Shown piece after piece: positions 6,389-37,669 of a stretch of DNA of 39,572 nucleotides. How positions within the stretch are numbered: position 1 is the first letter of the stretch; each line of letters opens with the position of its first letter. The translations under genes were made by a program, and so were the position numbers. Source of the DNA: Micromonosporaceae bacterium (lineage in GTDB: Bacteria; Actinomycetota; Actinomycetes; Mycobacteriales; Micromonosporaceae); NCBI GenBank assembly GCA_016880465.1, contig JAEHDK010000300.1, positions 1 to 39,572 of the forward strand, given 5' to 3'. The notes under the pieces are model-generated. The model did not search any database. It worked only from the letters and a program-made list of their open reading frames with translations, and was not told the DNA's origin.

Positions 6389-6415
6389 CGTCCGGTTGGC
6401 CGACGGAAGCACCTG

Positions 6416-9876: not shown

Positions 9877-10033
9877 AGGGCGTCGCGGTCACGGCGGCTG
9901 TCGGACCGTGATTGATCAAGGCCAGCGGCACCGGCGGGACCGGCCGGGTTCCTTCCCGCGTGGGCGGTTACGGTGTCTGCCCGCAAAGCGACCTGGGGAG
10001 GCCGGCACAGTCGCCTGACGCGGGGGTTCCCGA

Positions 10034-12380: not shown

Positions 12381-12456
12381 GCTCGGTACCCGTTAGAGAA
12401 CATCACCCCGAGCTGGGCATCGACCCGGAGGACTGCGCAGAAGGACGTCAAGGCTG

Positions 12457-16536: not shown

Positions 16537-16783
16537 GTGTCGGCCGCTGGATTATGCGCAGTCGGTGGAGCCGTCTTGATCAACAGGGCCTCCCGGCATT
16601 CCTCATAGTCGGCCCTATCGGTCTAGCAGATCGAGTAGCGTAGAAAAGGAGCTAACCAGCGCTAACACCCATTAGGGTGAAGTCACCTCCAGATCAGGAG
16701 TTACATAGCGGTTACTGTGCATCTTGGTCCAGTCACGCCCTATCTTGATGGCCGAGCGGCCCGCCACCGGACATCGGCGCTAC

Positions 16784-16801
16784 CCCGCCAGACCTGGCGG
16801 G
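16784..16801. promoter_or_regulatory. Perfect inverted repeat CCCGCCAG-AC-CTGGCGGG, candidate operator in divergent intergenic region
   Basis: Direct reading: 8-bp arms separated by 2 nt, about 41 nt upstream of the GTG at 16843. Confidence 0.45.
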
Positions 16802-16842
16802 TCATCGTCATGGCCGGCGCGCACGACCATCGATAACCAGGA

Positions 16843-17874
16843 GTGACTGTGAGCTTTCTGCCTGCCGGCTGCCGCGTTCTGATCACCGGTGGCACCGGTT
16901 CGTTCGGCCGGGCCATGGTCCGACGTCTGCTGGACTCCGACGTCGGCGAGATCCGTGTTCTCAGCCGCGACGAAGCCAAACAAGACGCGATGCGCCGACG
17001 GCTCGCGGATGATCGCGTTCGGTACCACGTTGGCGATGTCCGCGACCCAGAAACAGTGCTGAGGGCGACCCGGGACGTGCAGTTCGTGTTCCACGCCGCA
17101 GCGCTCAAGCAGGTGCCTTCCTGTGAGTTCTTCCCGCTCGAGGCGGTTCGCACCAACGTGCTGGGCAGCGTGAACGTGATCGAGGCAGCAGACCGCAACG
17201 GCGTCAGCTCGGTGGTGTCGCTCAGCACCGACAAGGCGGTCTATCCAGTCAATGCGATGGGCATGAGCAAGGCCCTGATGGAGAAGGTCGCGCAGGCCCA
17301 TGCGCGGAACAACCCGCGCAGCTCGACCGTGGTTTCCTGCGTCCGGTACGGAAACGTGATGTATTCGCGAGGGTCGGTGATTCCACTCTTCATCGAGCAG
17401 ATCAAGACGGGCAGGGCGCCGACCGTAACCGACCCCGCGATGACCCGCTTCCTGATGTCGCTGGCCGAGTCGGTCGAACTTGTGGAACACGCCTTCACAC
17501 ACGCGCGGCCGGGCGACTTGTTCATCTGGAAGGCCAGCGCATGCACAGTGGGCGACCTCGCTGAGGCCCTCTGCGAGTTGTACGACGTCCCGCCCAAGTT
17601 CGAAGTCATCGGGACGCGGCACGGTGAAAAGAGCGATGAGACGCTGGTCAACCGCGAGGAACTGGTGCTGGCGGAGGATCTCGGAAAGTTCTTCAGAGTC
17701 CCGGTCGATGCTCGCGACCTCAACTACGAGCTGTACTTCTCCGACGGTGATCTGGCGCTGGCGAAAATGGCCGATTTCAACTCCGCCAACGCACCCCGGC
17801 TCGACGTGCCCGGCATCGTGCGCTTGTTGACCACCCTGCCCGAGATCCGAGCGGATCTCGCGTCGCGTGGATAG
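16843..17874 (+). CDS. fnlA: UDP-GlcNAc 4,6-dehydratase/5-epimerase (FnlA/CapE family)
   Basis: RVLITGGTGSFGRAMVRRLL, AAALKQVPSCEFFPLEAVRTNVLGSVNVIEAA, SLSTDKAVYPVNAMGMSKALMEKV, CVRYGNVMYSRGSVIPLFIEQI, GTRHGEKSDETLVNREE. Confidence 0.88.
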   Translation: MTVSFLPAGCRVLITGGTGSFGRAMVRRLLDSDVGEIRVLSRDEAKQDAMRRRLADDRVRYHVGDVRDPETVLRATRDVQFVFHAAALKQVPSCEFFPLEAVRTNVLGSVNVIEAADRNGVSSVVSLSTDKAVYPVNAMGMSKALMEKVAQAHARNNPRSSTVVSCVRYGNVMYSRGSVIPLFIEQIKTGRAPTVTDPAMTRFLMSLAESVELVEHAFTHARPGDLFIWKASACTVGDLAEALCELYDVPPKFEVIGTRHGEKSDETLVNREELVLAEDLGKFFRVPVDARDLNYELYFSDGDLALAKMADFNSANAPRLDVPGIVRLLTTLPEIRADLASRG

Positions 17875-18131
17875 CCACCCGGTACCGGTGTCTGGCAAAC
17901 GCGCCACGGCCGGGACCGGGCAGCGGGGTGCGCTACCACGACAGGTGCGGGTGCAAAGAGCGGTGACATGCTGATGGGAATTGCATCGTGCGGGGTGAAC
18001 GCCCGGCAGGGCCGGCGCGTGCGGGTACTGCTCGGCGCGCTGGGCCGGCCGGAGCCGGTGCGACCGGCGCGCGCCGGTGTGTGTCCGAACGAGAACATGG
18101 TGCTCAGAGCGGCCGCCACCGGGGCGGGCAG

Positions 18132-19256
18132 ATGACCCGGGTGATGACGGTCGTGGGTACCCGGCCAGAGATCATCAGGCTGTCCAGGGTGACGAGGTTG
18201 CTCGATGACACCGTAGATCATGTTTTTGTCCACACCGGACAGAACTGGGACGCCGCGCTGTCGGATGTGTTCTTCACCCAGCTGCGGTTGCGTCAGCCCG
18301 ATCGCTTCCTGCGGGTCGACACCTCGTCGCTCGGAAAGGTGCTCGGTGGCGTGCTCGCTGGCGTCGAGGAGGTGATCCAGGATGTGCGTCCGGACGCCCT
18401 GCTCGTGCTGGGGGACACGAACAGTTGCATCGCCGCGCTGATGGGCCGGCGGATGCACGTGCCGGTGTACCACATGGAGGCGGGCAACCGGTGCTTCGAC
18501 CTGAACGTGCCCGAGGAGACCAACCGGCGACTGGTCGACCACATCTCCGACTTCAACCTCGTCTACACCGAGCACGCTCGGCGCAACCTGCTCGCCGAAG
18601 GGCTGCATCCGCGACGCATCATGCACACCGGCTCGCCGATGCGCGAGGTCCTGGACCACTACCGGGATGACATCGCGCGGTCGGCGATCCTGGGGCAGTT
18701 GGGCCTCGAGCCGGACGGCTACTTCGTGGTCAGCGCACACCGTGAGGAGAACGTCGACTCGGCGGATCGACTGCACCGCCTGCTGGACTGCCTGCGCGCG
18801 GTGCGTCGCGGGTGGGGGCTGCCGGTGCTGGTGTCCACTCACCCACGCACCCGCAAGCGGCTGGAGGCGCTCGCGGGCAAGGCTGGCCCGCTCGACGGGG
18901 TTGAGTTCCACGAACCGTTCGGCCTGTTCGACTATGTCCGCCTGCAACTGGACGCTCGCTGCACGCTGTCGGACAGCGGGACGATCAGCGAGGAAGCCGC
19001 GATTCTCGAATTCCCGGCGGTGACCCTGAGGGAGTCCATCGAGCGGCCCGAGGCGCTGGATGCCGGTGGGATCGTCATGACCGGATTGGATCCGGGCGCG
19101 GTGGTCGAGGCCGTCTCCGTGATGACCGCGCAGGTCACCGCGGGCGGCCTCTTCTGCCCGGTGGACTACCAGGTCCCGGACACGTCTCGGCGGGTTGTCG
19201 ACTTCATCCTCTCCACCTATCGGCAGCACCATGCCTGGGCTGGCGTCCGCCGCTAG
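18132..19256 (+). CDS. fnlC: UDP-HexNAc 2-epimerase, FnlC/CapG/WecB family
   Basis: From ATG 18132: MTRVMTVVGTRPEIIRLSRV, VYHMEAGNRCFDLNVPEETNRRLVDHISDFN (MEAGNRCFD as in CapG/FnlC), SAHREENVD, LSDSGTISEEAAILEFPAVTLRESIERPEALD. Confidence 0.88.
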   Translation: MTRVMTVVGTRPEIIRLSRVTRLLDDTVDHVFVHTGQNWDAALSDVFFTQLRLRQPDRFLRVDTSSLGKVLGGVLAGVEEVIQDVRPDALLVLGDTNSCIAALMGRRMHVPVYHMEAGNRCFDLNVPEETNRRLVDHISDFNLVYTEHARRNLLAEGLHPRRIMHTGSPMREVLDHYRDDIARSAILGQLGLEPDGYFVVSAHREENVDSADRLHRLLDCLRAVRRGWGLPVLVSTHPRTRKRLEALAGKAGPLDGVEFHEPFGLFDYVRLQLDARCTLSDSGTISEEAAILEFPAVTLRESIERPEALDAGGIVMTGLDPGAVVEAVSVMTAQVTAGGLFCPVDYQVPDTSRRVVDFILSTYRQHHAWAGVRR

Positions 19257-19320
19257 GGGTACGCCTCGGGATTATCCGGATTCGGCATAGTCTACGCGCT
19301 TCTTGTCTAGAATATGGACT

Positions 19321-20397
19321 ATGTCACGCGAAGACAATTCTGTCGGTCCGCAAACCCCCATGGAGCCGCCGCTACCGGCGACTGGCGAGCCTAGCCTGGG
19401 TCGTCGTGGCCGCCGATCCGGACGACGGAGAAGGTTGGTGCGGCGCCGGTGGCCCCGAGTGATCGCGCTCGTCGCCGTTCTTGTCGTCCTGGTCGTGGGC
19501 GGCGCAGGCTCGGTCGCATGGTTCTACCTTCGTTCACTGGAAGAGCAGGTCTCGCACGTGGATGCGTTTCGTGGACTGCAGGAAACGGAACGGCCCGCGC
19601 GGGTGACGGAGGCCGCGCTCAACATCCTCGTGGTCGGCAAGGACCCGCCCGAGCGCGGCGTCTCGCGCACCGATACGATCATGCTGGCTCATATTCCTCG
19701 CACCCGCGATAGGGCTCAGGTGATCTCGGTCCCGCGCGACACCTGGACCACCATTCCGGCTGATGGCGCCCGCAGCGCCACCACTGCCAAGATCAACGCG
19801 GCCTACGCCTGGGGCGGTATTCCGTTGCTGGTACGCACCCTGGAGAGTTTCACGGGAGTGCGCATTGACCGTGTCGTGCTGATCGATTTTGCTGGCTTCG
19901 GAAAGATCATCGATGCGCTTGGCGGGGTGGACGTCACCGTCGACCGCCCCTTTACCGCCACCGTTCTACCCGACACAACCTACCCGCCCGGCGTACACCA
20001 TATGGATAGTGCTATCGCGCTCGACTACGCCCGGCAGCGAAAGCAATTCGCCGACGGCGACTTCACCCGGATGCGGCACCAGCAGGCCATCATCGCAGCC
20101 GTGATGCAGAAAGCCGACCGGGAGGGCCTGCTGACCAACCCGCTCAAGCTCAAGGATTTCTTGGGCATGGCAGCCGGCGTAGTGCAGGTCGATCAGGATT
20201 TCCCGATGTTCGAGACCATCTGGGCACTGCGCCAACTGAGCACCCAAAACACTACAATGTTGACCAGTCCGTCAAGGGGCACCGGAGTGGTCGGTGACCA
20301 GAGCGTCGTCTTTCCCGACCAAGCGGCCGCGGCTCGCCTATATCAGGCGGTCAAAACCGACACCATGGCCAAATGGTTGGCGGAGAATCCGCCATAG
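19321..20397 (+). CDS. LytR-CpsA-Psr (LCP) family cell-wall polysaccharide transferase
   Basis: N-terminal TM anchor; NILVVGKDPPERGVSRTDTIMLAHI, VISVPRDTWTTIP, KINAAYAWGGIPLLVRTLESFTGVRIDRVVLIDFAGFGKIIDALGGVDV, ALDYARQRKQFADGDFTRMRHQQAII. Confidence 0.93.
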   Translation: MSREDNSVGPQTPMEPPLPATGEPSLGRRGRRSGRRRRLVRRRWPRVIALVAVLVVLVVGGAGSVAWFYLRSLEEQVSHVDAFRGLQETERPARVTEAALNILVVGKDPPERGVSRTDTIMLAHIPRTRDRAQVISVPRDTWTTIPADGARSATTAKINAAYAWGGIPLLVRTLESFTGVRIDRVVLIDFAGFGKIIDALGGVDVTVDRPFTATVLPDTTYPPGVHHMDSAIALDYARQRKQFADGDFTRMRHQQAIIAAVMQKADREGLLTNPLKLKDFLGMAAGVVQVDQDFPMFETIWALRQLSTQNTTMLTSPSRGTGVVGDQSVVFPDQAAAARLYQAVKTDTMAKWLAENPP

Positions 20398-20457: not shown

Positions 20458-20781
20458 TCAATGATCGGCTTTGGGCAGTAGGCGTACCGAGCAGGCGGCG
20501 ACGAGGATCACTTTCTGCCAGTTGCCCTTGGAGTAGGTGTCCGGCCGGATCGATGCCAAGGACCCGGACCCGCCCGGAGGTCGCGCGGTAGAGTCCCAGC
20601 GACTCCGGATCGTCGTGGACTTGCCGGCGCCGTTCGGGCCGAGGAAGCCATGCACCTCGCCGGTGCGGACGGTCAGATCGAGTCCATCGACGGCGGCGAT
20701 GTTACCGAACCGCTTCATGAGCCGCTCGACGTCGATGGCGTCGTTCTGCGGCATGTGATCGCCTTGATCCGAGTCATTCAT
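20458..20781 (-). pseudogene. Truncated/frameshifted ABC transporter ATP-binding protein
   Basis: [44 protein letters not shown] then frame break; another frame reads [20 protein letters not shown]; original frame resumes [14 protein letters not shown]. Signature/Walker B region missing. Confidence 0.8.
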
Positions 20782-21588: not shown

Positions 21589-22227
21589 TCACCTCCAGGC
21601 GGTCGTAAGTTCGTCGACGGTGGCGATTGTGGCGTATCGGTGACCGGCGGTGGCGAGAGTCGCATCGTGTAGGGACGGGTCCCAGGACGCGCACCCGTCG
21701 CGGGCGTAGACGACGTAGTAGTCGTGGCTGAACGCTTCTCGTGCGGTGGCTTCCACGCAGGCGTTGGTAGATACGCCGGCGCAGATCACGGTCTCCACGC
21801 CCGCGCTGCGTAGTTGCATGTCCAGGTTGGTACCGGCGAAGCCGCTGTACCGGTACTTGTAGACGGTAAGGTCGCCGGGGTGTGGTGTCAGTTCGTCGAT
21901 GACCAGGGCGCCCCACGATCCGGCGAGGCAGAGATCTTCGACGGAGTACGTGGCGCGGTTGCGCGCCTCCAGCCAGGCGCCGGAGGCACCGGCACGGTCG
22001 GGCAGCGTGACGTGGTTGACGTAGACCACTCGTACCCCGGCAGCCCTTGCCGCCTCGAGCAGAGCCCGCTGCGGAGCGATCGCGCCACGGGCGTCGGCGA
22101 GCGGCCGGCCGGCGCGCACCGCGGCCTTGCCGGCCGGGTCGATGAGGTCATTAACCATGTCGATGAGCAGGACGGCGGTATGCGCTGGGCCGACCTTGTC
22201 CGCAAGCGTGTACCTGATGGTGACCAT
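21589..22227 (-). CDS. Isochorismatase-family cysteine hydrolase
   Basis: From MVTIRYTLADKVGPAHTAVLLIDMVNDLIDP (catalytic Asp), VYKYRYSGFAGTNLD (Lys), VICAGVSTNACVEATAREAF (Cys). Confidence 0.9.
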   Translation of the reverse strand: MVTIRYTLADKVGPAHTAVLLIDMVNDLIDPAGKAAVRAGRPLADARGAIAPQRALLEAARAAGVRVVYVNHVTLPDRAGASGAWLEARNRATYSVEDLCLAGSWGALVIDELTPHPGDLTVYKYRYSGFAGTNLDMQLRSAGVETVICAGVSTNACVEATAREAFSHDYYVVYARDGCASWDPSLHDATLATAGHRYATIATVDELTTAWR

Positions 22228-22229
22228 TG

Positions 22230-23210
22230 CTAGTCGAGGTAGGTGGGGATGAGGGTGTTCGATGTGAACAACTCTGCCGGCTCGACCAGCCGCTTGCTCA
22301 ACCCCTGCTCGAACGAGTAGCGGCAGGCGGTCTCCAGCGTGGTGCGGTTGGCCTCCAGTCCGTAGGGCCACAGGTCATCGCCGAACACGGCGCGGGCTTC
22401 TTCGAGGTGGTGCGGGAAGAACGGCAGCGCCACGGGGGAGTGGCCGCCCACGCCGCCCATCCGCGCCAGGCAGAGCTGCTTGGCCTCCTGGAACGCCTTC
22501 ATCAGGCTGGTGGTGACCCAGGCGTGCTGCTGGTAGATGTCGCGCCGCAGGACCACCAGGTGCATGATCGGGTAGATGCCGGTGCGCTGGTAGTACTCGA
22601 GTTCTGCCTCGCGGGGGCGCGGGTAGAGCCGCCGGACGGGGCCTTCACCGAGCAACCGCGAAGTGTACGGACTCAGCGCACCGTGCACGGCGCCGCCGGC
22701 GAGCAGTTCGTCGACCGTGCGGTCGCGTACGACCTCCACTCGGATGTCCGGAGGCAGGTCCAGCTTCTCGCGCTCGATCCGTCCGGGCGCGTACTGGCCG
22801 GCCTGTACCCAGGTCACGTCCTGGGGCCGGATGCCGAACTCGTCGCCGAGCAGGCCGCGCATGAACAGTACGGCGGTCATGTGGTATTCCGGCACGGCCA
22901 GCCGCGAGCCGGCGAGCGCGGCCGGCTCGGCGATCTCAGGGCGGACGACGATGCCGCTGTGGCGGAACACCCGCGAGGTGAACACCGGCAGGCCGACGTA
23001 ACTGTCGTCGCCGCGGGCCACCCGCATGATGAATCCGGACAATGACATTTCGGCCAGGTCGAACTCGCCGCTCTGGGTTAGCCGCCAGAACGTCTCGGCC
23101 GGCGACATCGGCAAGCGCACGAGATCCACGCCCTCGACCGGCACCTCTCCGCTCATGATCGGATCGGTACGGTCGTACCGGCCACAGGCGAAGGACAGCG
23201 TCAATGCCAC
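22230..23210 (-). CDS. 4,5-dihydroxyphthalate-decarboxylase-like / periplasmic-binding-fold protein
   Basis: MALTLSFACGRYDRTDPIMSGEVPVEGVDLVRLPMSPAETFWRLTQSGEFDLAEMSLSGFIMRVARGDDSYVGLPVFTSRVFRHSGIVV; no obvious signal peptide. Confidence 0.78.
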   Translation of the reverse strand: MALTLSFACGRYDRTDPIMSGEVPVEGVDLVRLPMSPAETFWRLTQSGEFDLAEMSLSGFIMRVARGDDSYVGLPVFTSRVFRHSGIVVRPEIAEPAALAGSRLAVPEYHMTAVLFMRGLLGDEFGIRPQDVTWVQAGQYAPGRIEREKLDLPPDIRVEVVRDRTVDELLAGGAVHGALSPYTSRLLGEGPVRRLYPRPREAELEYYQRTGIYPIMHLVVLRRDIYQQHAWVTTSLMKAFQEAKQLCLARMGGVGGHSPVALPFFPHHLEEARAVFGDDLWPYGLEANRTTLETACRYSFEQGLSKRLVEPAELFTSNTLIPTYLD

Positions 23211-23222
23211 GGTGTACTCCTT

Positions 23223-23990
23223 CTAGCGATCGAGCCTCTTCTCCAGCGCCCACAGTCCAAAGGAGACACCGAAGGTGATGACGAGCAGTGTGAGCACGGT
23301 GGCGAAGACGCGGTCGTAGTCGCCGACGTTGTAGCTCTGCGACAGCGAGCGGCCGAGGCCGACGTCAGAGGCGAAGAACTCGGCCAGCACGACACCCAGC
23401 ACGGCGAAGCTGGTGGCGACTCGGATCGCGGTCACCACCGCCCGGGCGGTCGCCGGCAGCAGCACCTTCACCAGGTACTGCCGGCGGTCGACCAGCAGCG
23501 AGCGGGCCAGCTTGGTGTAGATGGGTGGGGTCGAGGCGATGGCCGCGCCTACCATGATCATCATAGGGAAGCACGACGAGATGACGCCCATGAAGACCTT
23601 CGACGGCGACCCGATCGTCAGCACCGGGATGATCAAGGGATAAAGCAAGATCTTCGGTACCGCGTACAGCGCCATCACGAACGACTGGAGGGTCGCGCGA
23701 GCCAGGGCGGAGACGCCGAGCACGAACCCGCCGAGGATCCCGATGACCACTCCGATGCCGAGCCCTGTCACGATCCGCCAGAATGTCACCTGAGCCGAGT
23801 AGAGATAGTCGCGGTCGGTCCACTCCTGCCCGATCACGCGCAGCGTCGCCGCGGGAGACGGCACGACGAAGGTGAGCCGGGAGGCGAGGTACCAGGCGCC
23901 GGCCGCGAGCCCGAGCAGCACCAGCGAGCCGGCGGCAACAGACGTACCGCCTGGCGCCTCGCGCTGCTCGTACACCCGGGCCACGGTCAC
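23223..23990 (-). CDS. ABC transporter permease (SsuC/TauC type)
   Basis: From GTG 23990 (VTVARVYEQREAP...); VTFWRIVTGLGIGVVIGILGGFVLG, AVPKILLYPLIIPVLTIGSPSKVFMGVISSCFPM. GTGA overlap with upstream gene. Confidence 0.9.
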   Translation of the reverse strand: MTVARVYEQREAPGGTSVAAGSLVLLGLAAGAWYLASRLTFVVPSPAATLRVIGQEWTDRDYLYSAQVTFWRIVTGLGIGVVIGILGGFVLGVSALARATLQSFVMALYAVPKILLYPLIIPVLTIGSPSKVFMGVISSCFPMMIMVGAAIASTPPIYTKLARSLLVDRRQYLVKVLLPATARAVVTAIRVATSFAVLGVVLAEFFASDVGLGRSLSQSYNVGDYDRVFATVLTLLVITFGVSFGLWALEKRLDR

Positions 23991-24760
23991 CGCCTGCCCT
24001 TCTGCACCGCGTTCTCCATGGCCGAGGCGGCCGCCATGAACACGCACGCCACCGCGAAAATGACCACCACGTACGCCCACATCTGTGCCTGCTCGAAATA
24101 CTCGTACAGGTACCGGACCTGGAATCCGAGCCCGGCCGGCGCGAGCAGGAACTCCATCGAGGTGATGCCGACGACCGCGAGGCTGGCCCCGATGCGCAGG
24201 CCGGCGAGGATCTGTGGCAGCGCGGCCGGCAGCATCACCTGGCGGAACCGTCGCGCCGGGCCGCATCGCAGCGACCGGGCGAGCCGGTGATACACCGGTG
24301 GTATTGCCTGGAAGCCGACCCACGTGTTGAGCAGTACCGGGATCGCGACGACCACGGTGTTGAGGATGATCAGCGACCACACGTTGATGCCGACCACGAC
24401 GAGCATTACCGGATACAGCACGATCAGCGGTACCGCGTAGAACGAGACGATGTATGGCTCCAGCACCCGGCCGATCAGCGGTAGCCGCCACAGCAGCGTG
24501 CCACCTGCGACGCCCACGAGACTGCCGGCGGCGAAGCTGATGACGATCGCGACCAGCGTGTCGGCCATGCTGGACCAGAAGACGGCGGTGGTGAGCAGGT
24601 CACCCAGTGCTGCCGCGACGGCGCCGGGCGTCGGCATCAGCCCAGGACCCCACCATTCCAGCGTGGAACCGAGCTGCCAGACGATCAGGATCAGCAGCAG
24701 CATGCCGGTGGTACCGGTGACGCCGAGCAGGAACGGCCGGGTATTCGCCGGCCCGGTCAT
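23987..24760 (-). CDS. ABC transporter permease (SsuC/TauC type)
   Basis: MADTLVAIVISFAAGSLVGVAGGTLL, SFYAVPLIVLYPVMLVVVGINVWSLIILNTVVVAIPVLLNTWVGFQAIPP, LRIGASLAVVGITSMEFLLAPAGLGFQVRY. Confidence 0.9.
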   Translation of the reverse strand: MTGPANTRPFLLGVTGTTGMLLLILIVWQLGSTLEWWGPGLMPTPGAVAAALGDLLTTAVFWSSMADTLVAIVISFAAGSLVGVAGGTLLWRLPLIGRVLEPYIVSFYAVPLIVLYPVMLVVVGINVWSLIILNTVVVAIPVLLNTWVGFQAIPPVYHRLARSLRCGPARRFRQVMLPAALPQILAGLRIGASLAVVGITSMEFLLAPAGLGFQVRYLYEYFEQAQMWAYVVVIFAVACVFMAAASAMENAVQKGRR

Positions 24761-25626
24761 AGCTCCACCTCGGCGACCACCGGGTGCTTATCGACGCCCG
24801 CGGGGTGTAGCTCCGTGTCGCTGAAACCGCGCAGCGACTCGCGCCGGATCGTCGACCACAGCCGGTTGGAGTACTGGTTGAACCGGTCGGTACCGACGAC
24901 GTCGAAGTCGCGGGGGTAGGGCAGGTCGATGCGCACCCGGTCGATGATCTGCCCGGGCCGGTACGACATCACCCAGACCTCGGTCGACAGCAGCACCGCC
25001 TCCTCGATGCTGTGTGTCACGAACAGCACGGTTAACCGCAGCTGGCTCCAGATCCGCAGCAGTTGCGCGCCGAGGATCAGGCGGGTCTGCTGGTCCAGCG
25101 CGCCGAACGGCTCGTCCATGAGCAGCACGCTGGGCCGCATGGCCAGCGTTCGGGCGATCGCGAGGCGCTGGCGCATGCCGCCGGAGAGCCGGGCCGGACG
25201 CTCACCGGCGAAGTCGGCGAGGCCGACCATGGTGAGCATCTCGTTGGCCCGGCGCTGCCGCTCGGCTCGCGGTACGCCGGCCACCTCCATCCCGAACGTC
25301 ACATTGCGCAGGGCCGACCGCCAGGGCAGCGTCGAATCCTCCTGGAACACCAGCCCGACATCCCGGCGCGGACCGGTAACCGGGGAGCCGCCGACCGAGA
25401 CACGACCGGAGGTGGCGCTGTCGAGGCCGGCGACGATGCCGAGCAGTGTCGACTTCCCGCAGCCGCTGGGCCCGACGATCGACACGAACTCCCCGGCCGG
25501 CACCGTGCCGGTCACCTCCTCGACGGCCTGCACCGTACGGCGGCCGGGGATGTCGAACGCCTTGCTGACCCGATCAAACACGACCTCGTTAGCCACGACC
25601 GTGCTCCGGGCGGGCGCCTGGGTCAT
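24757..25626 (-). CDS. ABC transporter ATP-binding protein (SsuB/TauB type)
   Basis: From MTQAPARSTVVANEV; Walker A GPSGCGKSTLL, signature LSGGMRQRLAIARTLA, Walker B VLLMDEPFGALD. Confidence 0.93.
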   Translation of the reverse strand: MTQAPARSTVVANEVVFDRVSKAFDIPGRRTVQAVEEVTGTVPAGEFVSIVGPSGCGKSTLLGIVAGLDSATSGRVSVGGSPVTGPRRDVGLVFQEDSTLPWRSALRNVTFGMEVAGVPRAERQRRANEMLTMVGLADFAGERPARLSGGMRQRLAIARTLAMRPSVLLMDEPFGALDQQTRLILGAQLLRIWSQLRLTVLFVTHSIEEAVLLSTEVWVMSYRPGQIIDRVRIDLPYPRDFDVVGTDRFNQYSNRLWSTIRRESLRGFSDTELHPAGVDKHPVVAEVEL

Positions 25627-26660
25627 CCGGCGGCCCCGAAGTCGCAGCGGTCCTCCTGCGGCAGGTACTGCTGATCCATGACCTTGGACCAGTCCACCTG
25701 CTCTTTGACGAACCCGGTCTTTGTCCACTGGGTGGTGAGGTTCTTGAAGCCGGCACAATCGATCTTGATGGTGAACGCGGTCGGTGCCTTGACCATGTCC
25801 CGCATCGCGGCCTGGAGCGTGGCCAGGTCCATCTTGATGATCTTGTTCAGCTCCACCGACACGCCATCCGGCTCGTCGCGGATATATGTGAATGCCCGGT
25901 CGGCCACCCGCCAGAAGGCCTTCACCGCGTCCGGGCTCTTGTCGGCGTACTCGGTGCGTACCGCGGCCAGATTCATCGGCAGTTCACCGATGACCTCGCT
26001 GGGACGTACCAGGGGCCTGCCGCCCTCGGCGAACAGTTGTTGCGCCTGTGGCTGGGCCGAGTAGGCGCCGTCGATCTGGCCCGCCTTGGCCGCCGCCCAG
26101 TTGGCGCCCAGTCCGGCCACCACCACCGGCTGGAGGTTCAGCTCCGGCCGGGCGGCCTGCATCGCCTTGACGAGGAACTCGCCGGTGGAGCCGGCGCCGG
26201 TAATGCCAAGCTTCGCGTTCTGCAGCGTTGCATTCGGCTTCGCCGCCACCCACACCACCACGTTGTGCTCAAACCAGGCGCCGATCACCTTGATGCCGCT
26301 GCCCGCCGTGGTCGAGGCCTTGTAGATGGCGTCCGGACCGGCCAGACCGATATCCGCCTGTCCCGAGGTGATCAGGCGGGTGGTGTCGCCACCTCCGCCG
26401 GCGTTGATGACGGTCACGTCCAGGCCGGCCTCGCGGAACCAGCCCTTGTCAGCCGCGACCTGAAGGATCGTCATGTACGGGATCGAGTCCACGAGAGACG
26501 TCGCGATGCGCAACTTGGTCAGCTCGCCGCTCCCGGCGGGCTGGGGATTGTCCTTGCTCGGCGACAGGCAACCGGCCGCGGCAAACGCCACGGCCACGAG
26601 GATCACCGTCATGCGGGCCAGGTACTGGCGAGAGGGCCGCCGAAACGTTGATTCGGTCAT
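25623..26660 (-). CDS. ABC transporter substrate-binding lipoprotein (SsuA/NMT1-like)
   Basis: MTVILVAVAFAAAGCLSPSKD lipobox; LRIATSLVDSIPYMTILQVAADKGWFREAGLDVTVINAGGGGDTTRLITSGQADIGLAGPDAIYKA. Confidence 0.9.
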   Translation of the reverse strand: MTESTFRRPSRQYLARMTVILVAVAFAAAGCLSPSKDNPQPAGSGELTKLRIATSLVDSIPYMTILQVAADKGWFREAGLDVTVINAGGGGDTTRLITSGQADIGLAGPDAIYKASTTAGSGIKVIGAWFEHNVVVWVAAKPNATLQNAKLGITGAGSTGEFLVKAMQAARPELNLQPVVVAGLGANWAAAKAGQIDGAYSAQPQAQQLFAEGGRPLVRPSEVIGELPMNLAAVRTEYADKSPDAVKAFWRVADRAFTYIRDEPDGVSVELNKIIKMDLATLQAAMRDMVKAPTAFTIKIDCAGFKNLTTQWTKTGFVKEQVDWSKVMDQQYLPQEDRCDFGAAG

Positions 26661-27634
26661 GGTGTGCTCCCGATGGATGAGGGCGCGGGCTGGTACTCAG
26701 CGGCGAGGGCCAGCAGGGGACTTATGGTCGGATCCCCCGGGTCGCGCAGGATCGCCGTGGCGAGTCCCGCGTCGACGAACCGATCGAGGCCGGCCCGGCA
26801 CTGGTCCGGGTCACCGGCGACGGCGAAGCCGTCGATCATTTGGTCAGATACCAGATCTTCGGCCGGAGAACCGGCCAGCCACGCTGCCCGGAACGCCCCG
26901 GCGAGGTCGGCAGACAGTCCGCCGACCCGGGTGATGTCGTGCGCACCGTGCACACCCAGATAGGTGGCGAGCGGTCGCCGTACCGCCGCGCGGGCGGCCT
27001 GCGCGTCACGATCGCACGCAGCGAGAAGGTAGGCCCCGGTCTGGATCGGCCGGCCCACCTGCTCCCGTGCCCACCGTACGTACGACGGCGCTGAGAGCAG
27101 GGAGAGCAGGACACCGTCGGCTACCTCTCCGGCGAGCGCCAAGCCGCGCCGGCCCTTGGTACCGAGATGGATCGGTGCGTCCGGGCGCGGCGGGGTGAAC
27201 GACAGCGCTGCGTCGGTGTGGAAGTGACGGCCATCGGTGACCAGCCACTCACCGGCGAGTGCGGCGCGGATGATCGCGGTGGCTTCACGCACCGCCGTCA
27301 ACGAAGCGGTGAACGGGATGCCGCAGCGCTGCTGTATCCACACCGCGTTGCTCGCGCCCAGCCCCAGCACCGCCCGGCCGCCAGACACCTCGTCCAGCGC
27401 GGCGTACTCCATGGCAGTGACCAGCGGGTGGCGGGTGAACGGGTTCACTACCCCGACACCGATCCGGACCCTCTCGGTGGCCGCCGCAACCGCACCTGCG
27501 ACGGCGAACGCCCCCCGTTCGAAGTAGTCCTCGGAAACCCAGATATCGCGCATGCCCGCCTGCTCCGCCTCGCGGGCGAGTCCGACCGCCTCGCGAGCGG
27601 GGCGGGTGCCGGACAGCAGCAGGCCGAGCCTCAT
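26657..27634 (-). CDS. LLM-class (probably F420-dependent) oxidoreductase
   Basis: From MRLGLLLSGTRPAREAVGLAREAEQAGMRDIWVSEDYFERGAFAVAGAVAAATERVRIGVGVVNPFTRHP; 4-bp overlaps at both ends. Upstream part of the 590-aa ORF is out-of-frame shadow of the next gene. Confidence 0.88.
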   Translation of the reverse strand: MRLGLLLSGTRPAREAVGLAREAEQAGMRDIWVSEDYFERGAFAVAGAVAAATERVRIGVGVVNPFTRHPLVTAMEYAALDEVSGGRAVLGLGASNAVWIQQRCGIPFTASLTAVREATAIIRAALAGEWLVTDGRHFHTDAALSFTPPRPDAPIHLGTKGRRGLALAGEVADGVLLSLLSAPSYVRWAREQVGRPIQTGAYLLAACDRDAQAARAAVRRPLATYLGVHGAHDITRVGGLSADLAGAFRAAWLAGSPAEDLVSDQMIDGFAVAGDPDQCRAGLDRFVDAGLATAILRDPGDPTISPLLALAAEYQPAPSSIGSTP

Positions 27635-28911
27635 GGCGTCACGCCCGCAGGGGTCTGCGCCATCGCGCGCTCCAGCGCGGGCAGGTCCGCGGTGAGGGTG
27701 GCCGGTGGCGGCAGTCGCGACGCCGTCGCCGCGACGTCCTTGAGCCCCGTTGAGGTGGCTACCACGACCACCAGTTCGTGCGGTCGCAGCCAGCCGCTCG
27801 CCGTCAGGTGCTGCGCGGCGACCAGTGGCAGCGCGCCGGAGGCCTCGAGGTAGAGCCCTTCGGTACCGGCGAGCCGGGCCTGCATCGCCATCACGATGTC
27901 GTTGGAGGGCTCGGCCACCGCGGTACCGCCGCTCTGCCGCAGCGCCTCGATGCCCTGCATGGTGGCGATAGGCGTGGCCACGGAGAAGGCGACGGACGCC
28001 AGCGAAGGCACCCTGGGTGGTGCCGCCGCGGGGTCGGCCAGCGCGGCGACGTAAGCCCCGAACGGGTCGATCGCCACCATGCGCGGTACCGACACGGCCA
28101 ATCCCAGCGCGACGAGGTCGGCGAAACCGCGGTGCACGCCCGCCAGACCATCGCCGTACGCCGCGGGCATGATGACCGCGTCTGGTACCTGCCCCAGGTC
28201 CTGCCAGATCTCGTAGGCGAGCGTCTTGTACCCGTCTACGCCGAACGGGTTTGATCCGATGGGTGGATCCCGGAAGCCGGACATCGGCACCCAACCGTGT
28301 GCGGCAACGGCCGCGGCCATCACGGCCCAGCGATCCGGCCCCGACTCGTACGCGAACACCCGCGCGCCGTACGCCTGCATCAGCGTCCGCATCGTTGTCG
28401 GCACCGATGTCAGCGTGAGCGCGATGCACTCGATTCCGGCGACGGCGGCGTAGGCGGCCACGGCGGCGCCATGGTTCCCGGTCGTGGACACCACGACCGT
28501 GCCGGCGCCCTCGGCGGCGGCCTTGCTCACCGCAACCGCGGCCAGTCGGTCCTTGTAGGACCAGGTCGGATTGCGGGTCTCATCCTTGAGCAGCAGGCGC
28601 TGCAGGCCAAGTTCTGCGCCGATCCGGCGTACCGGCAGCAGCGGCGTCCCGCCCTCGCCGAGGCTGACCGCCCGCGCCGCCGGGGGCAGCGGCAGCAGGC
28701 GGCGGTACCGGAAGATGCCTGGTTCATTCGGCGTGACCGGCAACGCACCGGCCTCGATGCGGTAGGCCGGACGAAGGTTCACCGGTATCCCGGCTGCGGC
28801 GCACCCGCGGCAGCCGTCAAACGCCTGCTCTTCCGCCTGCGCCGCACCACAACGGGGGCATCGGAGATGGCCCAGGTAGCCCGGGATGGTGAGAGCATCG
28901 AGGCCGGTCAT
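27631..28911 (-). CDS. Threonine-synthase-like fold-type II PLP enzyme
   Basis: N-terminal zinc-ribbon-like CPRCGAAQ...CRGCAA; PLP Lys in NPTWSYKDRLAAVAVSKA; STTGNHGAAVAAYAA. Confidence 0.88.
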   Translation of the reverse strand: MTGLDALTIPGYLGHLRCPRCGAAQAEEQAFDGCRGCAAAGIPVNLRPAYRIEAGALPVTPNEPGIFRYRRLLPLPPAARAVSLGEGGTPLLPVRRIGAELGLQRLLLKDETRNPTWSYKDRLAAVAVSKAAAEGAGTVVVSTTGNHGAAVAAYAAVAGIECIALTLTSVPTTMRTLMQAYGARVFAYESGPDRWAVMAAAVAAHGWVPMSGFRDPPIGSNPFGVDGYKTLAYEIWQDLGQVPDAVIMPAAYGDGLAGVHRGFADLVALGLAVSVPRMVAIDPFGAYVAALADPAAAPPRVPSLASVAFSVATPIATMQGIEALRQSGGTAVAEPSNDIVMAMQARLAGTEGLYLEASGALPLVAAQHLTASGWLRPHELVVVVATSTGLKDVAATASRLPPPATLTADLPALERAMAQTPAGVTP

Positions 28912-30053
28912 ACCGGCACCACCCGCAGCGCGCGGTCGATATCGGTGAATAGCTCGAAGCCTGACTCGGTGACCACGCCGGTGTCCTCGACCATCATCCC
29001 GCCCCAGCCGGGTTCGTAGTACGGCGTCTCAAGGCAGAAGACCATGCCGGGGACGAGCACGGTGTCCACAGCGGAGCCGATGATGGGTTGTTCGTAGACG
29101 GACAGCCCGATAGCGTGCCCGGCGTGATGCCGGCGGTACGGCGTGAGCCCGGCCGCCTCGACGGTGCGGATCGCGGTGTCGAACACCTCGCCTGCCGTGC
29201 TGCCCGGCCTGGCAGTCTCGAACTCGGCGAGTACGCCTGCCAAGAGCGCCTCGTAGTACGCGCGCTGCCGTGCGGTCGGCTCGCCGAGCACCGCGGTGCG
29301 CGCGATGTCCGACCAGTACCCGCGGTACACGCAGCCGACGTCGAAGCGGAGCAGGTCCCCGGGCCGGCAGGACCGTTGCGACGCGAAGGCGTCACCGAGC
29401 GAGCTGCGCTCCCCTGCGACCGCCACCACGAAGCGCGGCTCGGCGCCGCCAGCCACCATCTCGGTGGCAACCGCCGCGGCCAGCTCGTGCTCCGTCACGC
29501 CGTCGCGGGCGATGGCCAGGGCCGACTCGATACCACGCTCGGCGAGGCGGGCCGCTTCGCGCAGCAGAAGCTGTTCACCGGGCAGCTTCACTTGGCGCAC
29601 GGCCGCCATCCAGCTCGAAGCGTCCGCGGTGGAGCCGGTTATCGAGGTGACCACCTCTGCATGCGGTCCTTCGACGCCAGAGGGCACGTGCGGCAGCAGT
29701 TGCAGCGCCTCGGTTAGTGCTGCGCCGAAGGAGTCGTTGCGATCGCTCATGCCAGCCGCGTCCCCATCGCCGCTGAAGTAGAAGCGTCCGTAGGGCACGA
29801 TGCGATCGGCGGGTACCCCGGCCTCCACGGCCGCGGCGGTGTCGGCGGCGGGGCAGACCAGCCACACGTCGTCGCCGGTGAGGAGGGCAGCCATCGCGTG
29901 GCTCGCGAAAATCTGTCCGGCCACGCTGCGGTACCCGGTTGCGTAGTGCACCGCCTCGGGCGACGTGAGCGCGACCGCGTCGAAGCCCGCGGCAGCCAGC
30001 GACGCGCGTAGCCGGTCCAGCCGCGCGGCGCCCAGTCGGTCCGCATCGGACAC
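28908..30053 (-). CDS. M24 (Xaa-Pro peptidase/pita-bread fold) metallohydrolase
   Basis: GTG start 30053; FDVGCVYRGYWSDIARTAV, YRRHHAGHAIGLSVYEQPII, GMVFCLETPYY, MVEDTGVV: five expected metal ligands retained. Confidence 0.9.
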   Translation of the reverse strand: MSDADRLGAARLDRLRASLAAAGFDAVALTSPEAVHYATGYRSVAGQIFASHAMAALLTGDDVWLVCPAADTAAAVEAGVPADRIVPYGRFYFSGDGDAAGMSDRNDSFGAALTEALQLLPHVPSGVEGPHAEVVTSITGSTADASSWMAAVRQVKLPGEQLLLREAARLAERGIESALAIARDGVTEHELAAAVATEMVAGGAEPRFVVAVAGERSSLGDAFASQRSCRPGDLLRFDVGCVYRGYWSDIARTAVLGEPTARQRAYYEALLAGVLAEFETARPGSTAGEVFDTAIRTVEAAGLTPYRRHHAGHAIGLSVYEQPIIGSAVDTVLVPGMVFCLETPYYEPGWGGMMVEDTGVVTESGFELFTDIDRALRVVPV

Positions 30054-30054
30054 G

Positions 30055-31062
30055 TCAGCTCCGGTTACGACCGATTACCTCCGTGCTGAAGGCCGACATG
30101 GCCGAAATGGTGTCGGGTATGGTGTCCGCCGCGAACAGCAGTCCGGCGAGCGTAGTAACGCCGGCCTGCCGGTAGGCGTCCACCTGTTCGAGGATGTCGG
30201 CGGCCGTGCCGATCAGGTTCCGGGACAACAGGTCACCCTGCTGGTCGCGCAGGGTTGACGTGGATAGCGAGCGCAGGTGCGCGTAGAGCTGTGAGCCCTC
30301 GAACTGCCGCAGCGCCAGCTCGCGGGTCGGTGCCATCGATACGCCTACCTGCAGCGCGACATGGAAGTCCGGGGGCAACTGTCGGCGGTTGTCAGCCGCG
30401 ACCCGCCGGATCTCCGCGACGCCGGCGGCGACCTCGGCCGGGGTCAAGCAGGCCGGTAGCCAGCCCGTCGCCTGGGTCGCGGCCCGGTGCCGGCTGCCCG
30501 CCGAATTGCCGCCGGAGAGCACCGGTAACCGGGGCTGCACCGGCTTGGGAAAGCTCTCGACATCATCGAAGGAGATCCATTTGCCGGTGAAGGAGGCGCT
30601 GCGCTCGGTCCAGAGTGCCGACAGCGCGGACAGCGCCTCGCCGGCGTACTCGCCTCGGTTGAGCCGGCGGCCGGGCCACATGGCCTCGAACTCCTCGCGG
30701 TATGCGCCGATGCCCACACCCATGATCAGTCGCCCGTCGGAGAGGTGATCCAGGGTGGCTGCTTGTTTAGCGAGCACAACAGGGTGCCGGAACGGCAGGA
30801 CCGAGACACACGTGGCCAGGCGCAGCGAGGTGGTCCGGGCAGCCACGAATGACAGGTAGAGCCAGGGATCGATGTAGCGCGGCGGTTCGGGGAACTTCGC
30901 CCGCACATACCGCTGGGTCGCTACGTGGTCGTTGCCCCAGACCGAATGAAATCCCAGCTCTTCAGCGGTAATCGCCAGGCTGACGGCCTGCTCGACGCTG
31001 GCGTACGGCACGGGGTACATCAAGCCCTCCGTTGCCGTTGGCGCGCCCAGCCCGAACTCCAT
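30055..31062 (-). CDS. LLM-class (probably F420-dependent) oxidoreductase
   Basis: From MEFGLGAPTATEGLMYPVPYASVEQAVSLAITAEELGFHSVWGNDHVATQ; LVLAKQAATLDHLSDGRLIMGVGIGAYREEFEAM-type motif. Confidence 0.9.
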   Translation of the reverse strand: MEFGLGAPTATEGLMYPVPYASVEQAVSLAITAEELGFHSVWGNDHVATQRYVRAKFPEPPRYIDPWLYLSFVAARTTSLRLATCVSVLPFRHPVVLAKQAATLDHLSDGRLIMGVGIGAYREEFEAMWPGRRLNRGEYAGEALSALSALWTERSASFTGKWISFDDVESFPKPVQPRLPVLSGGNSAGSRHRAATQATGWLPACLTPAEVAAGVAEIRRVAADNRRQLPPDFHVALQVGVSMAPTRELALRQFEGSQLYAHLRSLSTSTLRDQQGDLLSRNLIGTAADILEQVDAYRQAGVTTLAGLLFAADTIPDTISAMSAFSTEVIGRNRS

Positions 31063-31082
31063 CTGACTCCGTCCGAGGATTA

Positions 31083-31125
31083 GATCTTGGCGGGTTGACG
31101 CAATACTGCCCGACAACGGAAGATC
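31083..31125. promoter_or_regulatory. Dyad GATCTT-N31-AAGATC in divergent intergenic region, candidate regulator site
   Basis: Direct reading between LLM start (31062) and PucR start (31167); offset inner GTTG/CAAC pair. Confidence 0.25.
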
Positions 31126-31166
31126 ATTCCTATGGTGCACCGTCGCAATGCTCGCAAAGGTCATTT

Positions 31167-32348
31167 GTGTCAACCGAACAAGTCATAGCCGCGCTGCTGG
31201 ACTCCGTCGAGCAGCTGACTGCTGAGGTGTTACGTCGGGTCTGGGGTACTCCCGGCTACGATGAGGACCACATGCGCCCCGAGGACCTCGCTAGCAAGGT
31301 GAGCCCCAACCTCCGCTGGATGATCCGCTGTGTCGGAACCATTGGCCCTGCCGCCGAGGAGGCGACCACCTCAGCGCAGGACATCGGCCAGAGCCGGGCG
31401 CTGCAAGGGGTACCGGTCGACGCACTGATCCAGTCCTGGGCAACTGCGGAACGCGTGGTGCTGGACAGCCTGCTCGAGCACGGTGAACTCCTGCTGCCCG
31501 CGCATCTCCGCCGGCTCGTGCGGCGACTCGGCGAGGTCACCGCAGAGCTGACCCGATGCTCGGTGATCGCGTACCGCCGCACGCAGGAAGAGGTCACGGC
31601 CCACTACGACCGCCTCACCACGGACCTGGTGGCGAGACTGACCGGGGAGCGACCCGCAGACCCGGAGACCATCCGGCGGCGCGCACGCACCGTCGGCAGC
31701 GATCCGGATGCGCCACACACCGCGGTCACGGTCGCCCTGCCGGCCATCGACGGCCCGGCTGCATACCTGCGCACCCAACGCCACCTGCTCGCTGTCATGG
31801 CCGCGGCCAGTGCCGGCCGGATCCTGGTCGGCAGCCTCGACGAGCACCCGCTGATGCTGGTACCCATGCCGGACGGGCAGACCGAGCGGCTCAATTCATT
31901 GCTCGAAGCCTGCGTGACCGACCGGCACCGTCCCGACCCGGTGGTGCTCGGCATCAGCGACCTCGCCGCACCGCTGCACGCCGTCGGACCGGTCTGCCGC
32001 GAGGCCCACCTCGCCATGCAGGTCGGCATGCGACTGGGCTGGTCCGACCGGGTCGTGAGGTTCAGTTCGGTGGCGCCGGAAGTGCTGCTGGTGCGCAACC
32101 CGGACGTGGCGGACGTGCTGGCCGACCGGCTACGGCCGCTGTGGCAGCGGCCAGAACTCGTCGACACGATCCGGGTGTACCTGCGGGAAGGCATGTCCGC
32201 CCGGGCCACGGCGCGCGAACTGTACGTGCACCCGAACACGGTGCAGTACCGGCTCAAGGCGATCCAGCGGATCCTCGGCCGACCGCTGTCGGACGCGATC
32301 GGGCTCGCCGACGTCATCCTCGCCCTGCGCGGCGAAGTGCTGCGCTGA
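31167..32348 (+). CDS. PucR/CdaR-type helix-turn-helix regulator
   Basis: GTG at 31167 (VSTEQVIAALLDSVEQL); C-terminal TIRVYLREGMSARATARELYVHPNTVQYRLKAIQRILGRPL, a PucR-type HTH. Confidence 0.88.
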   Translation: MSTEQVIAALLDSVEQLTAEVLRRVWGTPGYDEDHMRPEDLASKVSPNLRWMIRCVGTIGPAAEEATTSAQDIGQSRALQGVPVDALIQSWATAERVVLDSLLEHGELLLPAHLRRLVRRLGEVTAELTRCSVIAYRRTQEEVTAHYDRLTTDLVARLTGERPADPETIRRRARTVGSDPDAPHTAVTVALPAIDGPAAYLRTQRHLLAVMAAASAGRILVGSLDEHPLMLVPMPDGQTERLNSLLEACVTDRHRPDPVVLGISDLAAPLHAVGPVCREAHLAMQVGMRLGWSDRVVRFSSVAPEVLLVRNPDVADVLADRLRPLWQRPELVDTIRVYLREGMSARATARELYVHPNTVQYRLKAIQRILGRPLSDAIGLADVILALRGEVLR

Positions 32349-35648: not shown

Positions 35649-36593
35649 CTAGGAGGTCTGCTCGTTGGCCACCGACGGGACCATGAGGGCCGATAGTCGA
35701 GCGGTTGCCTGCAGGAGGAGCTCCGCACATCGTGGAATCTCTGTTCGGAACCGCTCGGCGGGGCCGGAGACACTGACCACGGCGACGGGGCGCGCATGGT
35801 CGAGTACCGGCGCGGCGATGGATGCCGCTCCCGGCTGACGCTCGCCGATAGACATGGTGTACCCGCGCTTGCGGGCGACGGCGAGGTCGCGGCGCAGGCG
35901 CTGCAGGTCGGTGATCGTCCGGTCGGTGAGTGCTTGCAGGGTGTGGCGGGCGACGTACTGCTCTATCTCGTCTTTCGGCAGGAAGGCGAGGAATGCCTTG
36001 GACGAGCTGCCGGCGTGCAGCGGGTACGGCACGCCCAAGGTGACCTCCATGCGGATCTCCCGGTCGGGGACCACCTGGTCGATGTAGGTACGCAGGTCGC
36101 CGGTGCGGATCGACAGGGTCGCGGTCTCCTGGGTCTGCTGGGAAAGCCAGGACAGCTCGGGCGCGGCCACCGCGCGGATGTCTAGCTGTTCGGTGTAGAC
36201 GCCGCTGAGGCGCAGTGCGGCCGGGCCGAGCGCGTAGCGCCGAGTGGACTCGTCGAGGACGACCAGACCGCGGCTCCGCAGCGAGGTGAGGATCCGGTGA
36301 ACGGCGGCTTTGGAGAGCCCCAGCTCGCCGGCGATCTCGGTCACGCCGTGGTCTCGTTGGCTGCTCTGCCCAAAGAGCAGCAGCACGTCGAGCGCGCGCT
36401 CCACGGTTGCGATGGACTGGCTTCGCCCGTTCTCCTCGACGTTCGCCCGGGTACGTCGTGGCAACGCAGAGGCCCGGCGGTCGGGCTGTGCGGTCGGTCC
36501 CTTCGGAGGCACCTCGGTCGTCTCCTCGGTGGCGGGCGCGGAGCCCGGCGGCTCGGACAGTCTAATCACTCGCCGCGCACACTTCGTGGCGAC
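35649..36593 (-). CDS. IclR-family transcriptional regulator
   Basis: SIATVERALDVLLLFGQSSQRDHGVTEIAGELGLSKAAVHRILTSLRSRGLVVLDESTRRYALGPAALRL; effector domain follows. Start uncertain (ORF open to 36677). Confidence 0.9.
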   Translation of the reverse strand, partial: VATKCARRVIRLSEPPGSAPATEETTEVPPKGPTAQPDRRASALPRRTRANVEENGRSQSIATVERALDVLLLFGQSSQRDHGVTEIAGELGLSKAAVHRILTSLRSRGLVVLDESTRRYALGPAALRLSGVYTEQLDIRAVAAPELSWLSQQTQETATLSIRTGDLRTYIDQVVPDREIRMEVTLGVPYPLHAGSSSKAFLAFLPKDEIEQYVARHTLQALTDRTITDLQRLRRDLAVARKRGYTMSIGERQPGAASIAAPVLDHARPVAVVSVSGPAERFRTEIPRCAELLLQATARLSALMVPSVANEQTS

Positions 36594-36829
36594 GCCGTCG
36601 GGCGAACGAGGTAGCTCCCCCGAGACCCGCCCCGCTTCGGCCGTCCACCATGACCGGCTCGCCACGCACGAAGGCATCGGTGAGGTTGGTGGTCAGCGCA
36701 GCGCCGCGGACTGGGTGTACTCCCGGGTCTGCGCTCCTCCTCCGCTCAGTCATCGGCTGGCACCGCCAGCGGGCGCACCGGCGAGCCTGTCGCGCCGACA
36801 AGCTTGAGTGGCGCCCGCGCGGCGGCTGG

Positions 36830-37669
36830 TCAGTAGCACAAGCAGCCGGGTTGCGGCTGTTGGCCGTAGCGCTGAAGCTCGGACGGCAGGATCGGCTGGT
36901 GCTCAGGCGTCCAGCTGAACCCGACCTCATGTTCGGTGTAGACGGTGCTCAGCGGTCCCCCCTTCGTCCGGAAGAGCATCAGGTTGCCGGTGGGTGAGCC
37001 GAACGGGCCGTGCCACTCCTCCGGCGGACGCCAGAAGTAGCAGCCGGGCTGCATCGTGCCGAGCGGCCCGACCAGCTCGCCCGAGAGCAGGTACATCTCC
37101 TCCACCACCGGGTGCTTCTCCGGGCGGCGGCCGGAGCGCAGCGGCATGGTGCCCAGCAGCCAGGTTTCCTCCCCGTCGTAGGGGTCGCGGCGGAGAAACT
37201 TACGCCCGGCGCCGGGCGGGAACAGCGGATGGAAGTTGGCACCCCACTGGCCGGCGAAGCCGTCGACGTGGGTGACGAGCCGCCGCTCATCGAGCAGGCC
37301 CGCCGGTGGCGGGCCGTCCACCAGCTGCGGCTCGCCGGAGAAGAAGGTGAGCACGACGGCTCCACTCCGGGACACGGTCCGCCGGCGGAGGTACCCGGCG
37401 GGCAGGTGCGCGTACGACTTCGGGCCGTAGTCAATGCTGTCGATGGTCAGCTGGCCGCCGAGGACGAAGAGCTCCTCGTCGACCCCGAGGTGATGGGTGC
37501 CTCTCGACCAGCCATCCGGGTACTCGATGAGCATGCTGGAGGCGCCGGTCTCCTGGTCCATGCTCAGCACCTTGGAGCGCAGTCCGGACCGCTGCTGGCC
37601 GTAGCTGCCGTCCCGCCAGGGCAGCGCCTGCGCCTGAATGAACTCGATAAATGGCCGGCCCACTCTCAC
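36830..37669 (-). CDS. Bicupin-type protein (DUF4437-like)
   Basis: Two cupin-like halves: WSRGTHHLGVDEELFVLGGQLTIDSIDYGPKSYAHLPAGYL and RPEKHPVVEEMYLLSGELVGPLGTMQPGCYFWRPPEEWHGPF. GTG start overlaps upstream stop. Confidence 0.75.
   Translation of the reverse strand: MRVGRPFIEFIQAQALPWRDGSYGQQRSGLRSKVLSMDQETGASSMLIEYPDGWSRGTHHLGVDEELFVLGGQLTIDSIDYGPKSYAHLPAGYLRRRTVSRSGAVVLTFFSGEPQLVDGPPPAGLLDERRLVTHVDGFAGQWGANFHPLFPPGAGRKFLRRDPYDGEETWLLGTMPLRSGRRPEKHPVVEEMYLLSGELVGPLGTMQPGCYFWRPPEEWHGPFGSPTGNLMLFRTKGGPLSTVYTEHEVGFSWTPEHQPILPSELQRYGQQPQPGCLCY

Follow-up and report, generated by a model that had tools for sequence, protein, structure and literature searches.

A portable four-enzyme core with exchangeable importers in an actinobacterial operon that probably serves the use of a small nitrogen-containing compound

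Introduction

What does a ten-gene actinobacterial operon of no recognised pathway import and degrade, and which of its genes belong together? This question is raised by contig JAEHDK010000300.1 of an uncultured Micromonosporaceae bacterium (assembly GCA_016880465.1), of which a stretch of 39,572 nucleotides, hereafter the window, was analysed. The operon encodes two luciferase-like oxidoreductases (LLM1 and LLM2), an M24 metallohydrolase (M24), a threonine-synthase-like pyridoxal-phosphate (PLP) enzyme (PALP), an ATP-binding cassette (ABC) importer and two further enzymes, and it lies beside a divergent PucR-type regulator. The initial annotation, made from the letters alone, had taken these genes for the import and stepwise catabolism of a small nitrogen-containing, possibly heterocyclic, compound. 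It was found here that the transferable unit is LLM1-M24-PALP-LLM2 together with a PucR-type regulator, and that the ten genes do not make up a single, inseparable pathway. The operon is probably an undescribed route for using a small nitrogen-containing compound.

Organization of the operon and its regulator

Ten open reading frames (ORFs) on the minus strand run from 31062 to 21589, and 4-nt overlaps join the genes at six consecutive junctions (five ATGA, one GTGA), exactly as first described; at the three remaining junctions the genes are separated by 1, 12 and 2 nt. Tight 4-nt coupling is ordinary among actinobacterial operons and hence not novel per se. The whole operon and its regulator were also found, in the same order and at 71-83% identity, in locus L064 (the same contig as G348/L067) of the metagenome-assembled genome Dino_bin41, from the window's own family. 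The gene families named in the initial annotation were recovered by Pfam and NCBIfam models, except that Pfam misses the assignment of the 4,5-dihydroxyphthalate-decarboxylase-like protein (DHPD), which is supplied by the match to PDB 9jp7_A. The features are as follows.

31167..32348, plus strand: divergent PucR/CdaR-type transcriptional regulator (Pfam HTH_30, PF13556, 8.1e-20; GGDEF_2 1.5e-9; start by comparison with L064)
31063..31166, no strand: divergent control region between regulator and LLM1, about 100 bp (direct reading of the sequence)
30055..31062, minus strand: LLM1, luciferase-like (TIM-barrel) oxidoreductase of the TIGR03619 subfamily, core (PF00296 4.5e-52)
28908..30053, minus strand: M24 metallohydrolase, prolidase-like, core (PF00557 1.3e-47)
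27631..28911, minus strand: PALP, fold-type II PLP enzyme, threonine-synthase-like, core (PF00291 1e-61)
26657..27634, minus strand: LLM2, Mer-like, probably F420-dependent oxidoreductase, core (F420_mer 147 bits; AlphaFold model)
25623..26660, minus strand: NMT1/THI5-like solute-binding lipoprotein with an AAGC lipobox (PF09084 3.6e-23)
24757..25626, minus strand: ABC transporter ATPase (PF00005 1.2e-31)
23987..24760, minus strand: ABC transporter permease 1 (PF00528 2.9e-19)
23223..23990, minus strand: ABC transporter permease 2 (PF00528 5.8e-19)
22230..23210, minus strand: DHPD, no signal peptide apparent, accessory (PDB 9jp7_A, E 5.8e-74)
21589..22227, minus strand: isochorismatase-fold cysteine amidohydrolase, accessory (PF00857 6.2e-41)

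The regulator probably starts at GTG 31167, and not at 31032 as in the ORF listing, which leaves a shared control region of about 100 bp. Its PucR-type helix-turn-helix domain is C-terminal and is accompanied by a GGDEF-like domain, and no match to the N-terminal PucR domain of purine catabolism regulators was obtained at E 0.001. The L064 orthologue is 71% identical. A scan of the control region for sigma-70-like promoters, which is uninformative for actinobacteria, returned none, and an Rfam scan of the window and seven related loci revealed tRNAs only, with no riboswitch or other RNA control element. An inverted pair GGTTGAC/GTCAACC, seen by eye in the divergent region of the window, is absent from L064, and we do not propose it as an operator.

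A selected operon with a portable four-enzyme core

Comparison of the window with L064 by the NG86 method gave, across the ten genes, nonsynonymous distances (dN) of 0.11-0.23 and synonymous distances (dS) of 0.54-0.84, with dN/dS of about 0.15-0.31, and all ten genes are therefore under purifying selection. The ten-gene operon is a real selected unit, and none of the window's flanking genes that were tested lies beside the operon of L064.

The LLM1-M24-PALP-LLM2 core was found in 17 genomes including the window, which are spread over a number of actinobacterial families and no fewer than two classes (the others are L064/G348, Mycobacterium sp. E1747 and E796, G671, G1049, G906, G1018, G920, G984, G949, G1057, G1002, G009, G076, G248 and G1185). 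A divergent PucR-type regulator usually accompanies it, and in most loci other than the window and L064 the adjoining regulator shows 30-47% identity. The core is nevertheless uncommon: orthologues of LLM2 were detected in 2 of 399 genomes of the order, those of PALP in 10 of 346 genomes of the class and 4 of 297 of the phylum sample, and those of LLM1 in 8 of 22 genomes of one family, all these counts overlapping in sampling. Among eight lineages, the pairwise distances of the four core proteins correlate (r 0.51-0.81, with at most 19 of 2000 permutations as high), as expected if the four were inherited together. No LLM1 or LLM2 homologue above threshold was found on plasmids, nor any PALP relative on viral contigs. 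In Mycobacterium sp. E1747, an LLM1 fragment with its first ~54 residues recognisable precedes M24 (L062 6369-6618), and the gene is intact in E796 (L063).

Retention of the core across families and classes, together with the L064 operon and purifying selection, shows that the arrangement exceeds chance, and the proposal of one unit that couples import to catabolism is supported. However, since the core is constant while the importer, DHPD and isochorismatase genes vary among loci, the latter are interchangeable accessories; the supposed ten-gene pathway is a single unit in the window, but not an indivisible one. Searches of other genomes showed the core genes to be conserved together. The gene set has no counterpart among curated families, and no account of it was found in the open-access literature searched, subscription papers being outside the reach of that search.

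Importer exchange and the nature of the substrate

An SsuABC/NMT1-type ABC importer lies beside the core in 4 genomes and an NCS1 permease in 10, and neither is nearby in two mycobacteria. In the ten genomes, the NCS1 gene (Transp_cyt_pur) sits between the regulator and LLM1, and the permeases are orthologous across families (49-51% identity between families, >92% within one group). The four ABC loci (the window, L064, L095 of G671 and L114 of G248) carry three unrelated binding proteins. Because those of L095 and L114 are non-orthologous to the window's solute-binding protein, at only ~20% identity, the pairing of the core with ABC importers arose more than once, by separate acquisitions.

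The case for a small nitrogen heterocycle rests mainly on the exchange between NCS1 and NMT1-type importers in combination with the PucR-type regulator, and the earlier idea of a nitrogen compound, possibly heterocyclic, gains support from the pairing of the same core with a cytosine/purine-type permease in ten other genomes. Candidates are thereby narrowed to compounds that an NCS1 permease as well as an NMT1-type ABC system can carry. Thus, the operon would import, under PucR control, a small nitrogen compound that is probably heterocyclic and would break it down by oxidative or reductive and then hydrolytic and PLP-dependent steps, a reading whose chances of being correct appear about even. 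Several points weigh against it. The NCS1 permeases score about 215 bits against a cytosine-permease cut-off of 326, so that their cargo is not fixed, and the ligands of NMT1-type binding proteins are very diverse (sulfonates, nitrate, pyrimidines, aromatics). The chemistry of M24 and PALP is too versatile for prediction from family alone. Moreover, in the two mycobacteria the core is preceded by a Rieske oxygenase and an alpha/beta hydrolase and is followed by DHPD, placed right after LLM2, and then by FAA hydrolase, 3-hydroxyacyl-CoA dehydrogenase and MCE genes, a context that could mean a more hydrophobic substrate.

This mycobacterial context, together with the match of DHPD to 9jp7, would suit an aromatic or hydrophobic compound, in which case DHPD would be a true phthalate-type decarboxylase and the mycobacterial Rieske, FAA hydrolase and MCE importer genes would display the original chemistry. 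We consider this very unlikely, since the window operon contains neither a ring-cleavage dioxygenase nor an aromatic oxygenase, among non-mycobacterial loci only the window and L064 were found to have DHPD in the vicinity of the core, and both the isochorismatase-fold amidohydrolase and the PucR-type regulator point to nitrogen.

The importer has also to be considered with regard to organosulfur scavenging, in which SsuABC-like import of a sulfonate or sulfone would be followed by sulfite release by LLM1 and LLM2, with PALP assimilating the sulfur or removing an amine from the carbon skeleton. The operon resembles SsuABCD in its ABC importer of the NMT1/SsuA superfamily and its luciferase-like oxidoreductases, two such genes with an Ssu-type importer being a familiar arrangement, and the fold of LLM1 is closest to SsuD, MsuD and SfnG. 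However, when family membership was assessed by bit scores against the curated cut-offs of family models, the binding protein reached 74.5 of the 163.5 bits required for SsuA (SsuA_fam), so that the SsuABC-type importer of the initial annotation holds as a superfamily resemblance and fails for SsuA itself. The oxidoreductases scored 61 and 34 against 510 for SsuD (NF001939), and the SfnG score was likewise far too low (82 against 383). In addition, LLM2 is Mer-like and not SsuD-like, the operon includes no flavin reductase, and its importer is replaceable by NCS1, a family not known for sulfonate transport. Sulfur scavenging is thus quite improbable.

As to the accessory genes, the window and L064 share the isochorismatase gene, and L095 has a more distant relative of it. 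The wider DHPD family proved too paralogous for defining the system. DHPD paralogues occur near isochorismatase-fold hydrolases in other actinobacterial genomes where the core is absent (L028, L032, L036, L039), and L028, L036 and L039, although not L032, also carry Ssu/NMT1-type ABC parts near the paralogue, which suggests that a distinct module recurs in these genomes. A ThiD-like (phosphomethylpyrimidine kinase) gene adjoins the regulator of the core in G009 (L113 3732-4550) but in the congener L115, of which two neighbours were scanned, no such gene was seen near the core; this apparent link to thiamine was not used as evidence.

Enzyme features and a proposed route

LLM1 belongs to TIGR03619 (206.8 bits, above the cut-off of 166.9), and its model (pLDDT 84) has the flavin mononucleotide (FMN) monooxygenases SsuD, MsuD, RutA and SfnG as nearest folds; at ~22% identity, this resemblance is too weak to fix the cofactor. 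The eight best PDB matches to the AlphaFold model of LLM2 (pLDDT 90) were all F420-dependent Mer enzymes (TM 0.83-0.87), and the genome of the window encodes an FbiC-like F420 synthesis protein (475 bits, over a cut-off of 213). LLM2 resembles Mer in fold and closest solved relatives, although it falls below the Mer equivalog cut-off (147 against 349 bits) and lacks the equivalent of Glu6, the catalytic residue of Mer (PMC11094777), in whose place each of the 13 homologues has Leu, Ala or Ser. Judged by its model, LLM2 is probably an F420-dependent oxidoreductase.

In 16 aligned rows, the dinuclear metal ligands of M24 (D238, D249, H313, E342, E356) and the PLP lysine of PALP (K120, in S-Y-K-D-R) are invariant. 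The best PDB relatives of PALP are threonine synthases, and it scores below both threonine-synthase equivalog cut-offs (223 against 303 and 103.5 against 167 bits). DHPD is homologous over its full length (residues 3-319) to the protein of 9jp7_A, named 4,5-dihydroxyphthalate decarboxylase. The amidohydrolase has RutB as its best solved relative (E 3.7e-23), and its Asp-Lys-Cys motif regions are retained in the window, L064 and L095.

If the substrate is a nitrogen heterocycle, the PucR/CdaR-type regulator would control the operon divergently, and the NMT1/THI5-type ABC transporter would import a small, probably planar ring of pyrimidine or hydantoin size. LLM1 may then oxygenate either the ring itself or a C-N bond of an amide, with FMN or F420, and LLM2 may transfer hydride with F420. 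M24 would hydrolyse the resulting C-N bond and liberate an amino-acid-like product, from which PALP would eliminate, or which it would deaminate, to give an oxo acid and ammonia. In the window organism, the isochorismatase-fold hydrolase could free more ammonia from an amide, and DHPD could decarboxylate the substrate or an intermediate, which would extend the range of substrates. The order of these steps is a guess. A narrower version, put forward tentatively and unlikely to hold, is that the core performs an undescribed degradation of a nitrogen heterocycle, plausibly a pyrimidine (thiamine pyrimidine, or a cytosine or hydantoin relative) in which an F420-dependent Mer-like hydride step delivers its product to M24 and PALP, with an NMT1-type ABC or NCS1 importer plugged in.

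The M24-PALP pair outside the core

M24 and PALP also recur as a pair with other partners. In L096 the neighbouring genes encode a regulator of the PucR type, an importer of the SBP_bac_1 type and a protein of the argininosuccinate lyase family, and in Agrobacterium a TTT transporter accompanies the pair. On a megaplasmid of Rhodococcus sp. JS3073 the pair occurs twice, close together and each time preceded by an MFS carrier (L078 13859-16263, and L078 29739 to L082 2871), with MmgE/PrpD, an ELFV dehydrogenase, parts of a 2-oxoacid dehydrogenase and a thiamine-pyrophosphate enzyme as neighbours. This recurrence beside enzymes of amino acids and oxo acids and beside other importers fits M24 and then PALP acting sequentially on an amino-acid-like product.

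The same partners would be compatible with a substrate devoid of a ring, such as an amino acid carrying an N-acyl group or another N-substituent, or a dipeptide resembling Xaa-Pro, for which M24, closest to Xaa-Pro dipeptidases, would be the first hydrolase, PALP would remove the amine, and the LLM enzymes would trim N-alkyl groups as in the nitrilotriacetate and ethylenediaminetetraacetate monooxygenases. However, the NCS1 pairing in ten genomes does not suit such a compound, no peptide transporter lies beside the core, and LLM1 reaches 55 bits against the 280 of the NtaA/DmoA model (TIGR03860), so that this alternative appears unlikely.

Comparison with known systems

Every curated cut-off for membership in the Ssu, Rut, ectoine, Mer and threonine synthase families was missed. 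The nearest parallel in design is found in the clusters for ectoine and 5-hydroxyectoine (ehu/ueh-eutABCDE, DoeA), whose utilisation involves an M24 hydrolase, a PLP enzyme, an oxidoreductase and an importer that varies by species, either ABC or TRAP (PMC5924519). The likeness extends to the combination of M24 (EutD/DoeA), a threonine-dehydratase-like fold-type II PLP enzyme (EutB), an oxidoreductase (EutC) and an exchangeable importer. However, the proteins of the operon score far lower than those systems require (eutD 60.2 against 613, DoeA_2 79.8 against 575, EutB 38.8 against 413 bits), two LLM genes replace EutC, EutE and EutA are missing, and the regulator is of the PucR type instead of the MocR-type EnuR.

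For the association of a luciferase-like oxidoreductase with an isochorismatase-fold amidohydrolase in a nitrogen-scavenging operon, the nearest parallel is Rut (RutA-RutG). Nevertheless, RutA (42.7 against 498.3 bits) and RutB (102.7 against 378) are not matched, RutC-RutF are absent, and M24, PALP, the Mer-like LLM2 and an ABC importer are added. Thus, the enzyme families are all known, and their combination appears to be new.

The occurrence of this core with varied importers in several families and classes of actinobacteria predicts that a nitrogen compound common in the environment is degraded by an undescribed route. If true, the proposed route would add a role for coenzyme F420 in the catabolism of nitrogen compounds, and proper names could be given to many genes whose present annotation is threonine synthase, Xaa-Pro peptidase or LLM oxidoreductase.

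Neighbouring genes in the window

Just downstream of the operon, a short ORF on the minus strand (20458-20781) with the Walker A motif GPNGAGKST apparently represents a truncated DrrA-like ABC ATPase. Positions 1-19300 are occupied by a polysaccharide/glycan cluster (glycosyltransferases, a sugar transferase, a DegT aminotransferase and epimerases), with which a LytR-CpsA-Psr protein (19303-20397) is found. At 35649-37669, a gene for a ChrR-cupin/DUF4437 protein adjoins an IclR regulator.

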